29,276 nt of DNA from Basidiobolus meristosporus CBS 931.73 (lineage: Eukaryota > Basidiobolomycota > Basidiobolomycetes > Basidiobolales > Basidiobolaceae): positions 1-29,276 of the forward strand of contig MCFE01000871.1 of assembly GCA_002104905.1 (NCBI GenBank). The letters run 5' to 3'. Under the pieces are notes generated by a model. That model searched no databases and had not been told where the DNA came from. It saw only the letters and a program-made list of their open reading frames with translations. Both the position numbers and the translations under genes were made by a program. Within the stretch, counting starts at the first letter, position 1; each line of letters opens with the position of its first letter. Below, one piece after another: positions 11,228-16,238 of the stretch.

Positions 11228-12606
11228 TTAGATTTGACTCTTTTGATGGACGTTTCTTACAACATCGTCAACGGCACGAGCGAAATACTCGACGTTGCCA
11301 GTGTTCAAACCGGCCATGGAGATACGGCCGTTGTCAGTAAGGTAAACGTGATACTTCTCTTTGAGCACCTTGACTTGGGCAGCAGTCAAACCGGTGAAGG
11401 AGAACATACCGATCTGGTCAACAATGTGGTTCCAAGTGCCAGGGGTTTTCAACTCTTCGGTCAAGTATTGGAAGAGCTTCTGGCGCATCTCCTTGATGCG
11501 GTTGGCCATGATTTGGAAATCGTCGACCCACTCTTGGAACAACACGGGGTCGTTAAGGACCAAAGAGACGATACGGGCACCAAAGGCCGGTGGGTTCGAG
11601 ATGGTAGCACGGTTCAATTTCTCCAATTGGGATCTGACACTGTTGTTGATCTCGGAGTTCTGGCTCACGACGTGCAGAGCACCACAACGTTCACCATATA
11701 GACCGAAGTTTTTGGCGAAGGATTGAGCAACAAACAATTCGAAGCCCTGCTCGACGAAGTAACGGACTGCAGCGGCATCGCGGTCGAGGTTACCGCTGGC
11801 GAAACCTTGATAGGCGCAATCAAAGAAGGTGAACTGCTTCTTGGCCTTGATGACTTCGGCGATCTTCTTCCATTGCTCCAATGTAGGATCAACACCAGTA
11901 GGGTTGTGGGCGCAAGCGTGTAACAGCACGATGGCTCCCTCGGGAGCAGCCTCCAATGAGCGAATCATGCCATCGAAATCGAGGCCGTTGGTCTCACGGC
12001 TATAGTAAGAGTATTGCTGGACATCCAAACCGACCATCTCGAAAATAGCCTTGTGGTTGGCCCAGGTGGGGTTGGAGATGAGGACAGTCTTGCTCTTGTT
12101 ATAGAAACGAGACAAGAAGAGAGCACCAAGGTAAACAGCGCCAGTGCCGGAGATCGACTGAGCAGAAACAGTGCGGTTCTCAGCGATGGCGGGGCTGTTG
12201 GGACCGAGGATTAACTTCGCGGCAGCTTCGGTAAAAGAAGGAAGACCACGAATGGTAAGATACTCATGGTTGAGGTTGGGATCGCTCAAGAGAACTTGCT
12301 TAGCCTGTTGATACGATTTGGTAAGGGTGAGCAGGAGCTAGACCAACGAGTTTACACTGAGCCAAACCTTTTGAACAACAGGAAGAACCCAAGGTTTACC
12401 GGCGTCATCTCTGTAGGCACCAACACCGAGGTTGACTTTCTTACCGTCAGTATCCGCTTGATAGGAGGCGGTGAGATTGAAGATAACGTCGGGGGGAGCA
12501 AGTGGTACTTCAGCAAAGACTACAATATAAAATGCGAAATTCACGTAAGTAATCAATGGCAACTGAAGACTAGGTTGCAAAGATGGCTTTTGCACGTACA
12601 AGACAT
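11228..12606 (-). CDS. AAT2: Aspartate aminotransferase, cytosolic type
   Basis: Three exons: 12606-12600 (7 bases, ATG TCT T), 12519-12368 and 12304-11228, giving 411 residues. Introns are 80 bp (donor GTACGT) and 63 bp (donor GTTTGG, acceptor AACAG). It interconverts aspartate + 2-oxoglutarate and oxaloacetate + glutamate using PLP. Class I signatures are present: [10 protein letters not shown] and GKPWVLP near the N-terminus, HNPTG (N187), FFDCAYQGF (D215, Y218), [14 protein letters not shown] with the Schiff-base lysine K251, and the C-terminal GRISMAGLN arginine. The protein begins [13 protein letters not shown] with no mitochondrial presequence, matching cytosolic GOT1/AAT2-type enzymes; peroxisomal location cannot be excluded. 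A degenerate copy of its 5' end lies at 13708-13880. Confidence 0.95.
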
Positions 12607-12661
12607 GTTGTAGAGTATCGAGAATTCAATGGTCAATTCTTTCAGAATACGCACCGCTGGT

Positions 12662-12668
12662 TTTTATA
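12662..12668 (-). promoter_or_regulatory. TATA box of the aspartate aminotransferase gene
   Basis: The minus strand reads TATAAAA, 62 bases before the ATG. The same element survives in the duplicated copy (13871-13877), although that copy no longer has a start codon. Confidence 0.6.
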
Positions 12669-13521
12669 GGGATTCGGTTGCTCATGGTTGCTCAACCCCA
12701 AACTCTAATGATTGGTCCAACCGTATGGCTAGCGCACTCCAGCCACCAGGCAAGTGCATCTATCGATCTTCGTCATTCTAACTTTCGGAAGCCGAGCCCA
12801 ACGAAAATGAACAACTCGAACTAAACCTGGAAAACCCCAACTTTTCATGCGACACTCGGCTGTCATCTGAAGATGCTGCGTACGACTTACCGTACCATCG
12901 CCAAATTCCCACCCACTTGCTCCTAATGCCGTTTAGAGCTAAGCTCAGATCTCCCCGAAATATCATCGTGATGAGAGGGAAAATTACGGAAGGGAATGAC
13001 GCTCTCTGAGTCATCCAATCCGAACCCGCCGATGCTAGCAAATTTCTCTCCCGATGGCCATTATAGGAAAGCCAGCGTGAGATAGAAATCAATATGGACC
13101 GCATCTTATTTAAGATACAAGTATAGCCGAAACTAGATTAGGTTCTTGAATAGGTGCATACAAATTTGTTCGAGTCAGGATCAGGTTCCTGAATATATTG
13201 CTACCAATTTACAGGCATTTGGATATAGTTCTTGGGCAAGTTCGTTTAGCTGCATAACTACGGACACTGCTGCTACAGTTGCTATTCACGTCATACCACT
13301 CCTCCAATAAGATGTCGAACCATCTCCTTTTGACTTGTATAAGTCTCACACCTCAACTATGTCAATTGTTTCCATAGATCCCACGTGAAATAGCAAGGGG
13401 CATCATTTTACTGGCTGTAATGCATGCCTGGAGGTCTGAGGATGGTCTGATCTGCGTGCGAATAGGGTATAGAGCCGCCCACCGTTTGGTGGCTATCTTG
13501 GTTCTATGCACCCCGTCCATG

Positions 13522-13707: not shown

Positions 13708-13880
13708 ACTCTAAGCACCAACACCGAGGTTGCCTTTCATACCATCAGTATCCGCTTGACAAGAGAAGGTGAGGTTGAGGAACATGCCAGGGGAAGTAAA
13801 CGCGATTCTTAACGTGTTCAAGTAGAGGATTGAAAGTTCAATGGTTTACCGAAAACCCCTCACAAGTGGCTTTTATAGGA
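13708..13880 (-). pseudogene. Aspartate aminotransferase 5'-end fragment
   Basis: 13708-13805 aligns with AAT exon 2 (12411-12510), sharing words such as CACCAACACCGAGGTTG and CAGTATCCGCTTGA. 13811-13930 aligns with the 5' leader and promoter, including the TATA element at 13871-13877. The position equivalent to the start codon reads ACG instead of ATG on the minus strand, intron 1 is deleted or unrecognisable, and the remaining ~350 codons are absent. Confidence 0.85.
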
Positions 13881-14480
13881 ACTCAGCTATTCACACCTGT
13901 TAAACCCCCAGTCCTAATGATCGGCTGAGCCTCAATGGTTGGCCCACTCCAGCCACCAGGCAAGTGCATCTATCGATCTTCGTCATTCTGACTTTCGGAA
14001 GCTGTGTTCGACGAAAATGAACAACCAGAACTAAACCTGAAAAGCAGTGAATATTAAGATGGCTTCTGGCTGTTATCCGTAACTGTTAATGCCAATTTCC
14101 GCTAGGCCAGAAAACGCGAGGAAATGTTTGTTGTATTTTATGAGTCTGGGCTTGGTTCTTGAATAAGTTATGTCCAGCCTACGGACATTGATCTTGGTTC
14201 TTGGGTAAATTCAAATTGCTGCAGAGTTGAGGACACTGCCGCTACAATTGCTATACACATCATATTGATCTTCCAACAAAATGCCGAATCATCCCCTGTT
14301 GACTTGTATGATGTTTTACACCTGACCCTCGACAATAATCGTTTACATAAGATGTCCACGTGAAAATACAGTGGGCCCCTCTGCATTTTAATGGGTACTA
14401 TGCATCTGAAAGGTAGAATGGGTTCAGGGTTTTGGTCTGGCTCACGTGCGAATAGGACATAGGATATGTGATGACAATAT
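13708..14480. repeat. Copy 2 of the degenerate AAT-ACAD duplication
   Basis: It pairs with 12411-13470. The AAT side is reduced to a fragment, and the ACAD side leads into the intact gene starting at 14548. Two E-box palindromes CACGTG are present (14357-14362, shared with copy 1; 14443-14448, present here only, since copy 1 has TGCGTG). Confidence 0.85.
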
Positions 14481-14547
14481 AAAGCCTGCCTCCCCTTTAC
14501 TGCTCCTCACTGTCCACTCTCACTCTTACCCTTCAGATTTACTAACC

Positions 14548-16238
14548 ATGGGAAAACCACTCACTGCACAAGATGTCCAGAAACACAACACCGAAAACGA
14601 CTGTTGGATCATTGTTCATGGCAAGGTAAATGCAGCAAGATGTCAATGGCGTGCACATGTGGTCTAACCATTTTGCAATAGGTTTATGACCTTAGCAACT
14701 TCCTAAGCGAGCACCCAGGTGGTAAGAAGGTTGGTGTAGCTATTTTCTCCATTCGCCTGATATTGTAGTGACCATTTATGCTGTAGGTTCTTGTTCGAGT
14801 GGCTGGTACCGATGCTTCGAAGCAGTTCGATAACTTCCATAACAAGGCAGTTCTTGATCAATGGGGTCCCAAGCTTCTTGTTGGCAGTATTGGCGAAGCG
14901 TCAGCCTCATCGAACGAGGTCAACGCTTCGTCCACTGAGGAGAACCCTGAATATTTCGGAGAGCTGATACCATTTGGTGACCCATCTTGGTACTACGCAC
15001 CCAGCCCATATTACAATGACAGTCACAAACGACTGAGAGCTGCACTCCGCAAGTTCGTTGACAGTGAGATCATGCCCTTCACTCATGAGTGGGATGAGGC
15101 AAAGAAGATTCCACAAGAACTATTCATCAAATTGGCGAAAGCGGGAATCCTTTCCGCTGTCGTCGGTCATCCATATCCTACTGCATACGCGTACACGAAG
15201 AATCTCATCGGCGACGTCACGCCAGAGGAGTTTGATCCATTCCACGAGTTCATTATCTGTGATGAAATCTCTAGATGTGGCAGTGGCGGTGTACTGTGGG
15301 GATTGGTGGGTGGTTTAGGTATCGGACTCCCACCTATTCTTAACTTTGGGTCCGAGGAGCTCAAGCAAAAGGTTGCGCCTGGCTGCCTATCCGGAGAGAA
15401 ATTCATCTGCCTAGCCGTCACCGAGCCCTACGCTGGCAGCGATGTAGCAAACATCCGATGTGAAGCAAAGCTTAGTGATGATGGGGAGCATTACGTTGTC
15501 AATGGAGAAAAGAAATGGATCACTAATGGAGTTTGGGCTGATTACTTCACCGTTGCTGTGAGAACGGGGGGAGAGGGAATGGGAGGAGTGTCACTGTTGT
15601 TGATTGAGCGTTCCATGCCTGGCGTGAAGACGAGGCAGATGCAGTGCTCCGGGGTCTGGTGCTCTGGAACATCCTATATCACGTTTGAAGATGTAAAGGT
15701 TCCCAGGAGCAACCTTGTTGGCAAAGAAAACAAGGGGTTCAAGTATATTATGTATAACTTCAACCACGAGCGCATGGGCATCGCAATCCAAGCATCAAGA
15801 TTCTCACGTGTCTGTCTAGAAGAATCCATCAAGTACGCCAACAAGCGTAAGACTTTCGGAAAGAAGTTGATTGATCACCCAGTCATCCGTGACAAGTGCG
15901 CGAGAATGGCTGGTAAAATTGAAGCGGTGCATGCTTGGATGGAATCATTGATTAACATGACGAAGGTGATGCCGAAGGATATGCAGATGGTCGCCCTTGG
16001 TGGACCTATTGCACTTCTCAAGGCACAGTCCACTCAGACATTTGAGTTTTGTGCTCGTGAGGCAGCCCAAATCTTTGGGGGTCTGTCTTACACCCGAGGT
16101 GGCCAAGGAGAGAAGGTTGAGCGGCTGTATCGTGAGGTGAGGGCCTACGCCATTCCAGCTGGTTCGGAAGAAATCATGCTTGATTTGGGTATAAGACAAA
16201 GCCTCAAATTGGCCAAAATGTTTGGTGCAAAGATGTAG
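14548..16238 (+). CDS. Acyl-CoA dehydrogenase with N-terminal cytochrome b5 domain
   Basis: Exons 14548-14625, 14682-14729 and 14787-16238 (donors GTAAAT and GTTGGT, acceptors AATAG and TGTAG) give 525 residues. Residues ~1-75 form a cytochrome b5-type heme domain with axial-ligand candidates H37 (in HPGG) and H60 (NFHN). A linker leads to a full acyl-CoA dehydrogenase fold with FAD/substrate signatures LAVTEPYAGSDVAN and GEKKWITNG, and a C-terminal GGLSYTRGGQGEKVER. The usual medium-chain catalytic position appears as IPAGS rather than YEGT. A glutamate in NHERMG (E370) fits the catalytic base location of isovaleryl-CoA and long-chain dehydrogenases. The fused b5 suggests an electron acceptor other than, or besides, ETF; substrate unknown. 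AATAAA follows at 16346-16351. Confidence 0.93.

Follow-up and report, generated by a model that had tools for sequence, protein, structure and literature searches.

Layout of the AAT–ACAD locus

We analysed a locus of Basidiobolus meristosporus CBS 931.73 that holds an aspartate aminotransferase gene (AAT), an acyl-CoA dehydrogenase gene (ACAD) and, between them, dead pieces of both. The stretch of DNA analysed, called the window below, is a whole contig (C1170, 29,276 bases) of an assembly of 89.0 Mb in 1,311 contigs. A first-pass annotation, made from the letters alone, had read it as a divergent AAT–ACAD pair that was duplicated in tandem and then lost one gene from each copy. As judged by gene models and by blastn of the window against itself, it gave the order and strands of the following six parts correctly.

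11228..12606, minus strand: intact AAT (aspartate aminotransferase, 411 amino acids); gene model, Pfam Aminotran_1_2
12607..13480, no strand: intergenic copy 1, at present upstream of AAT only; blastn, alignments
13481..13590, plus strand: dead ACAD fragment, a piece of exon 3 and remnant of the copy called ACAD-A below; blastn, alignments
13588..13810, minus strand: dead AAT relic (edge of exon 3, intron 2 and part of exon 2); blastn, shuffle tests
13811..14547, no strand: intergenic copy 2, at present upstream of ACAD only; blastn, alignments
14548..16238, plus strand: intact ACAD (cytochrome b5 domain and acyl-CoA dehydrogenase, 525 amino acids); gene model, Pfam, protein record

The intact AAT has three exons on the minus strand (12600-12606, 12368-12519 and 11228-12304), the first of which is only 7 bases long, and its open reading frame at 11229-12289 matches Aminotran_1_2 at 2.7e-81. 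The intact ACAD likewise has three exons, on the plus strand (14548-14625, 14682-14729 and 14787-16238), and matches Acyl-CoA_dh_N, Acyl-CoA_dh_M and Acyl-CoA_dh_1 of Pfam. Its product is 100% identical to a B. meristosporus protein, the record of which includes cytochrome b5 (PF00173) and acyl-CoA dehydrogenase domains.

Comparison of the window with itself revealed two collinear diagonals, formed by four plus-strand matches (74-82% identical) between the units that contain copy 1 and copy 2.

12411-12501 and 13709-13799, plus: copy 1/copy 2 match 1, 80% (blastn)
12610-12833 and 13822-14043, plus: copy 1/copy 2 match 2, 75% (blastn)
13228-13390 and 14197-14365, plus: copy 1/copy 2 match 3, 74% (blastn)
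13481-13593 and 14969-15082, plus: copy 1/copy 2 match 4, 82% (blastn)

The four matches score 84-150 bits, against a maximum of 27.4 bits when copy 2 was shuffled 100 times. The copies are adjacent and collinear, lie in direct orientation and include noncoding DNA, as expected of a tandem segmental duplication, and this part of the first-pass annotation is borne out. We found no sign of retroposition, the origin that the annotation had set against its own proposal. Were the fragments made by retroposition or by separate insertions, an intronless copy lacking promoter DNA would be expected; in fact intron 2 survives in the AAT relic and intergenic DNA in both units, with order and orientation unchanged, which argues for tandem duplication instead. 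Nothing was found in favour of retroposition or separate insertions, and we regard this origin as refuted.

A homologous segment and the age of the events

A second contig of this assembly, C549, carries a segment (1-33,225) that is collinear by blastn with window 1041-29276. Identity declines from left to right, being 98.2% over window 1041-4714, 94.0% over 4715-8110, 86.7% over 8230-13463 and 84.8% over 17473-29276. Near window 7,100, identity per 100 bases drops from about 99% to about 90% over some 100 bases and remains lower rightward; the step resembles the boundary of an exchange, or of a loss of heterozygosity, between homologous segments. Close matches to the DNA of AAT and aconitase were confined, in a search of the assembly, to these two contigs. 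The AAT genes on C126 and C1213, tried as candidates for the duplicate, were rejected, as they represent another AAT that is 56% identical. In exon 3 the AATs of the window and C549 differ at 4 of 358 residues, with a synonymous divergence (dS) of 0.46.

On C549 the AAT is followed by three ACADs and an AAT relic, in the order AAT, ACAD-A, relic, ACAD-B, ACAD-C.

C549 13380-15091: ACAD-A, head to head with AAT, open frame of 526 amino acids
C549 about 15266-15574: AAT relic, between ACAD-A and ACAD-B
C549 16143-17854: ACAD-B, open frame of 526 amino acids
C549 18531-20242: ACAD-C, open frame of 526 amino acids

The divergent pair that the first-pass annotation took to be ancestral thus persists on C549, since AAT there faces an open ACAD-A. 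Relative to this ACAD-A, the window lacks about 13300-13821 and about 13933-15336 (C549 coordinates), losses of about 0.5 kb and about 1.4 kb, one on each side of the dead ACAD fragment, that leave 110 bases of exon 3 and remove the ACAD-side TATA region. The presence and plus strand of the fragment had been recognised, and only its extent needed refining, the best alignment being 13481-13590.

The dead AAT fragment had also been placed on the correct strand, but the relic proved longer than proposed: it extends across intron 2 as far as about 13588, where it touches the ACAD fragment. Its part at 13588-13702 aligns with AAT 12299-12412, and none of 2000 shuffles scored as high as 13591-13690 against the window AAT. 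The window and C549 can be aligned across the interval that lies between the dead fragments, and this interval is AAT sequence. A tblastn match had extended the ACAD fragment to 13606; this was rejected, as 13591-13606 is a better match to AAT (0 of 2000 shuffles, versus 1533 of 2000 for the rest of ACAD-A). The C549 relic continues through AAT exon 3 to about codon 122 (0 of 2000 shuffles; controls, 257 and 1473 of 2000). We also rejected truncation of the AAT copy at birth in exon 2, as the DNA before the relic, in window coordinates, turned out to belong to intron 2 of AAT and, on C549, to its exon 3 as well. AAT sequence past about codon 122 of 411 was not found in the window relic or the C549 relic; the duplicated segment thus contained no less than about 122 of the 411 codons, counted from the start of the gene (about 30%).

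We read the order of events from five intergenic units aligned together (copy 1, copy 2 and units A, B and C of C549). Copy 2 has five internal gap runs of at least 5 columns (89, 47, 30, 18 and 157), and unit B has counterparts of 89, 49, 32, 18 and 159 columns, with edges within 2 columns; all five are absent from copy 1 and unit A. Likewise, 34 informative sites group copy 1 with A and copy 2 with B, against 14 and 13 for the alternative groupings. These shared gaps and sites, together with the same relic region on both segments, point to a common origin of the duplication: since copy 2 and unit B share gap positions and the relics share their ends, the duplication predates the split between the window and C549. 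The 89-column gap covers AAT intron 1 and the adjoining exon edges, removing the start region of the AAT relic; because it is common to both segments, the AAT copy was broken before the split as well. The loss of the first ACAD was later and confined to the window segment, since an open ACAD-A opposite AAT is still found on C549.

The reciprocal gene loss proposed earlier, therefore, describes the end state of the window and not a single resolution. The losses are complementary, but they do not belong to the same lineage and stage, one preceding the split and the other having occurred on the window only. What looks like a neat reciprocal loss is the outcome, on one of the two homologous segments, of separate events that differ in age.

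Several observations weigh against this reading. Over the 625 four-way columns, copy 2 is by raw identity no nearer to unit B (0.685) than to copy 1 (0.688). In the middle, at 12701-13100, informative sites are divided 6, 6 and 4, so that the split is not favoured there. In one of the four relic tests the window relic matched the C549 AAT weakly (score reached by 86 of 2000 shuffles), and in a test of the junction without the coding relic 2 of 1000 shuffles scored as high as the real alignment. The window ACAD has a dS of 0.75-0.78 to the ACADs of C549, while genes neighbouring it to the right of the identity step have 0.34-0.52 (rows for the open reading frames at 17663-18295 and 26105-26698 were excluded, as their nonsynonymous divergence, dN, was near or above dS and they are probably not true frames). 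As the dS of the window ACAD to ACAD-B and ACAD-C exceeds that of its neighbours, strict orthology of the window ACAD with the C549 ACADs is uncertain. Finally, C549 and the window may be alleles, homeologues or duplicated segments. A single genome set should hold about 3 loci for the RNA polymerase domain PF04997 and about 10 for PF00118; in the assembly, 4 contigs carry PF04997 and 15 carry PF00118, a mixed picture of partial doubling. B. ranarum is reported in PMC3281927 to be at least diploid, with divergent haplotypes.

It is also conceivable that each segment duplicated the pair separately after divergence. In keeping with this, the coding regions of the C549 ACADs differ far less among themselves (dS 0.035-0.12) than from the window ACAD, and FastTree groups A, B and C together. 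Independent duplications, however, would not account for the shared gap positions, the shared relic ends and the 34 against 14 and 13 sites, and the identity of only 0.56 between units A and B just upstream of the coding region fits conversion rather than recent duplication. We therefore consider them improbable, and return to a duplication older than the split.

Fates of the ACAD copies and of the intergenic halves

The identity between A and B is 0.56 at or before C549 13100, 0.76 at 13101-13290 and 0.92 beyond 13290, reaching 0.957 over the coding region (dS 0.12). Similarly, B and C step from 0.645 to 0.995 (dS 0.035, dN 0.006). The linker before ACAD-C is old intergenic sequence, unlike that of B; its scores against copy 1, copy 2 and A were reached by 0 of 1000 shuffles. 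The abrupt steps are most simply read as homogenisation of the C549 ACAD coding regions by gene conversion or an equivalent exchange.

ACAD-A is a mosaic. Of the 54 sites where it differs from identical B and C, 22 lie at codon-alignment positions 1050-1200, and its private residue changes number 16, of which 10 fall within the conserved residues 356-380, the frame remaining open. Among them is G374V, at a site where 101 of 116 relatives have G (the 120 listed, minus two of other length and two Basidiobolus proteins). ACAD-A may be a decaying copy that was partly overwritten by healthy sequence, for which B/C would be the source.

The presence of three open ACADs raises the possibility of an adaptive expansion of ACAD copy number, with the piece of AAT and the intergenic copy as passengers and the AAT promoter context irrelevant. 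The dN of 0.006 at a dS of 0.035 between B and C would agree with this, as would the state of the AAT copy, a relic of which nothing was retained. On the other hand, the window segment was reduced to one ACAD, and the cluster of changes in ACAD-A, G374V included, looks relaxed rather than adaptive. Adaptive expansion is a serious possibility, though we lean against it.

As to the intergenic DNA, each living gene of the window does have its own copy, as the first-pass annotation stated and the self-comparison bears out. Copy 2 and units A, B and C have a TATA and transcription start region on the ACAD side, which is missing from copy 1; copy 2 keeps a TATA-like TTTATA on the AAT side. Between the two segments, identity on the AAT side is 0.797 (4 gap columns) for copy 1 versus 0.623 (116 gap columns) for copy 2; on the ACAD side it is 0.710 (16 gap columns) versus 0.774 (3 gap columns), with overlapping intervals. 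The interaction of copy and side, calculated from separate pairwise alignments, gave z values of 1.99, 1.19, 3.42, 4.86 and 3.34 at five split points, i.e. positive at all five and above 1.96 at four, though alignment columns are not independent. For this last reason, we regard these values as moderate evidence that the unused promoter half decayed in each intergenic copy. Such decay would be incomplete, because copy 2 still has its AAT-side TATA-like site. An uncoupling of AAT–ACAD co-regulation, from a putative bidirectional promoter, is possible, and is a testable idea; according to PMC7466969, RNA reads of B. meristosporus CBS 931.73 exist.

These results bear on the first-pass scenario as a whole, in which the entire AAT–ACAD unit was tandemly duplicated once and reciprocal loss uncoupled two co-regulated genes. 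The end state of the window, the uneven conservation of the promoter halves and the deletion of the ACAD-side TATA and start region from copy 1 are all as this scenario predicts. It conflicts, however, with the arrangement on C549, where AAT faces an open ACAD-A and three ACADs are present, so that the first ACAD was lost on one segment only, after the AAT copy had been broken; with the TTTATA retained in copy 2; and with the absence of AAT beyond about codon 122 from either relic. In this strict form we find the scenario doubtful, and prefer a tandem duplication followed by losses of different age.

A further contig, C974 (44,413 bases), was tried as a third copy of the pair and rejected: it has one ACAD (87% amino acid identity) and the collinear downstream genes in reverse order, and tblastn at 1e-3 over all 44,413 bases found no AAT. 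It is an older collinear paralogous segment, matching the window from ACAD to its right end, reversed, in blastn pieces of 73-87%, and gives an outgroup for the ACADs and not for the AAT–ACAD pair. In the same region the window has tandem amino-acid transporter (Aa_trans) genes at 22099-25536, 86% identical over 1.2 kb; this tandem pair is present on both the window and C549, and C974 has one Aa_trans gene only. Window 26123-26700 is a repeated sequence with 86-87% identical copies on C974, C547, C125 and C563. Further along C549, 60000-65000 holds a dispersed repeat with dozens of copies across the assembly (77-88% identity), probably a transposable element.

Proposed history and known systems

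We think it probable that the locus arose by a tandem duplication, an early break of the AAT copy and later, segment-specific fates of the ACADs. In an ancestral divergent AAT–ACAD pair, a segment with at least about 122 AAT codons, the intergenic region and ACAD was duplicated in tandem, giving AAT / ACAD-A / AAT copy / ACAD-B, as the shared relics show. The AAT copy was broken early, ahead of the divergence of the window and C549, as the shared gaps show. On the window lineage ACAD-A was then lost through the two deletions, with the 110-base fragment remaining; on the C549 lineage an open ACAD-A was kept beside AAT, a third ACAD was gained and the coding regions were probably homogenised. 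In each intergenic copy the unused promoter half would have decayed.

Relaxed selection on redundant copies is the likely driving force, and uncoupling AAT from ACAD may have brought a regulatory advantage. A bolder reading is that one genome holds both a coupled (C549) and an uncoupled (window) state, the duplicated intergenic region splitting into AAT-only and ACAD-only promoters, and that selection may favour ACAD expression free of AAT, because the ACAD that shares its promoter with AAT decays on both segments, being deleted on the window and mutated at conserved sites on C549. We regard this as rather unlikely. The processes invoked (tandem duplication, deletion, gene conversion and decay of unused promoter parts) are all of known, ordinary kinds.

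The locus makes the control region presumably shared by two unrelated genes visible before and after splitting, so that the coupled version can be set against the uncoupled one within a single cell background. The sister segment dates the steps and corrects the simple story of reciprocal loss that one segment suggests. The ACAD array adds a difference in copy number and gene conversion between homologous segments of a Basidiobolus genome. A narrow search of open-licence literature found no paper on this AAT–ACAD locus.

The arrangement resembles duplication-degeneration-complementation in that there are two regulatory copies, each better conserved beside its surviving gene. The survivors here, however, are two different genes rather than paralogues, and on the sister segment the process appears incomplete. 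The C549 ACADs are like a tandem array homogenised by gene conversion, with similar coding regions, old and different flanks and a mosaic A copy; apart from the difference in copy number between homologous segments, nothing about the array is unusual. In yeast, GAL1-GAL10 is a divergent pair with a common control region, and the paralogue GAL3 was left alone after a whole-genome duplication; the present locus is similar in having a divergent pair and a paralogue standing alone, and differs in that its duplication was in tandem. Divergently paired genes are defined in PMC2670823 by start sites within 1 kb; AAT and ACAD-A of C549 resemble such a pair, lying head to head about 956 bases apart, as measured between start codons.

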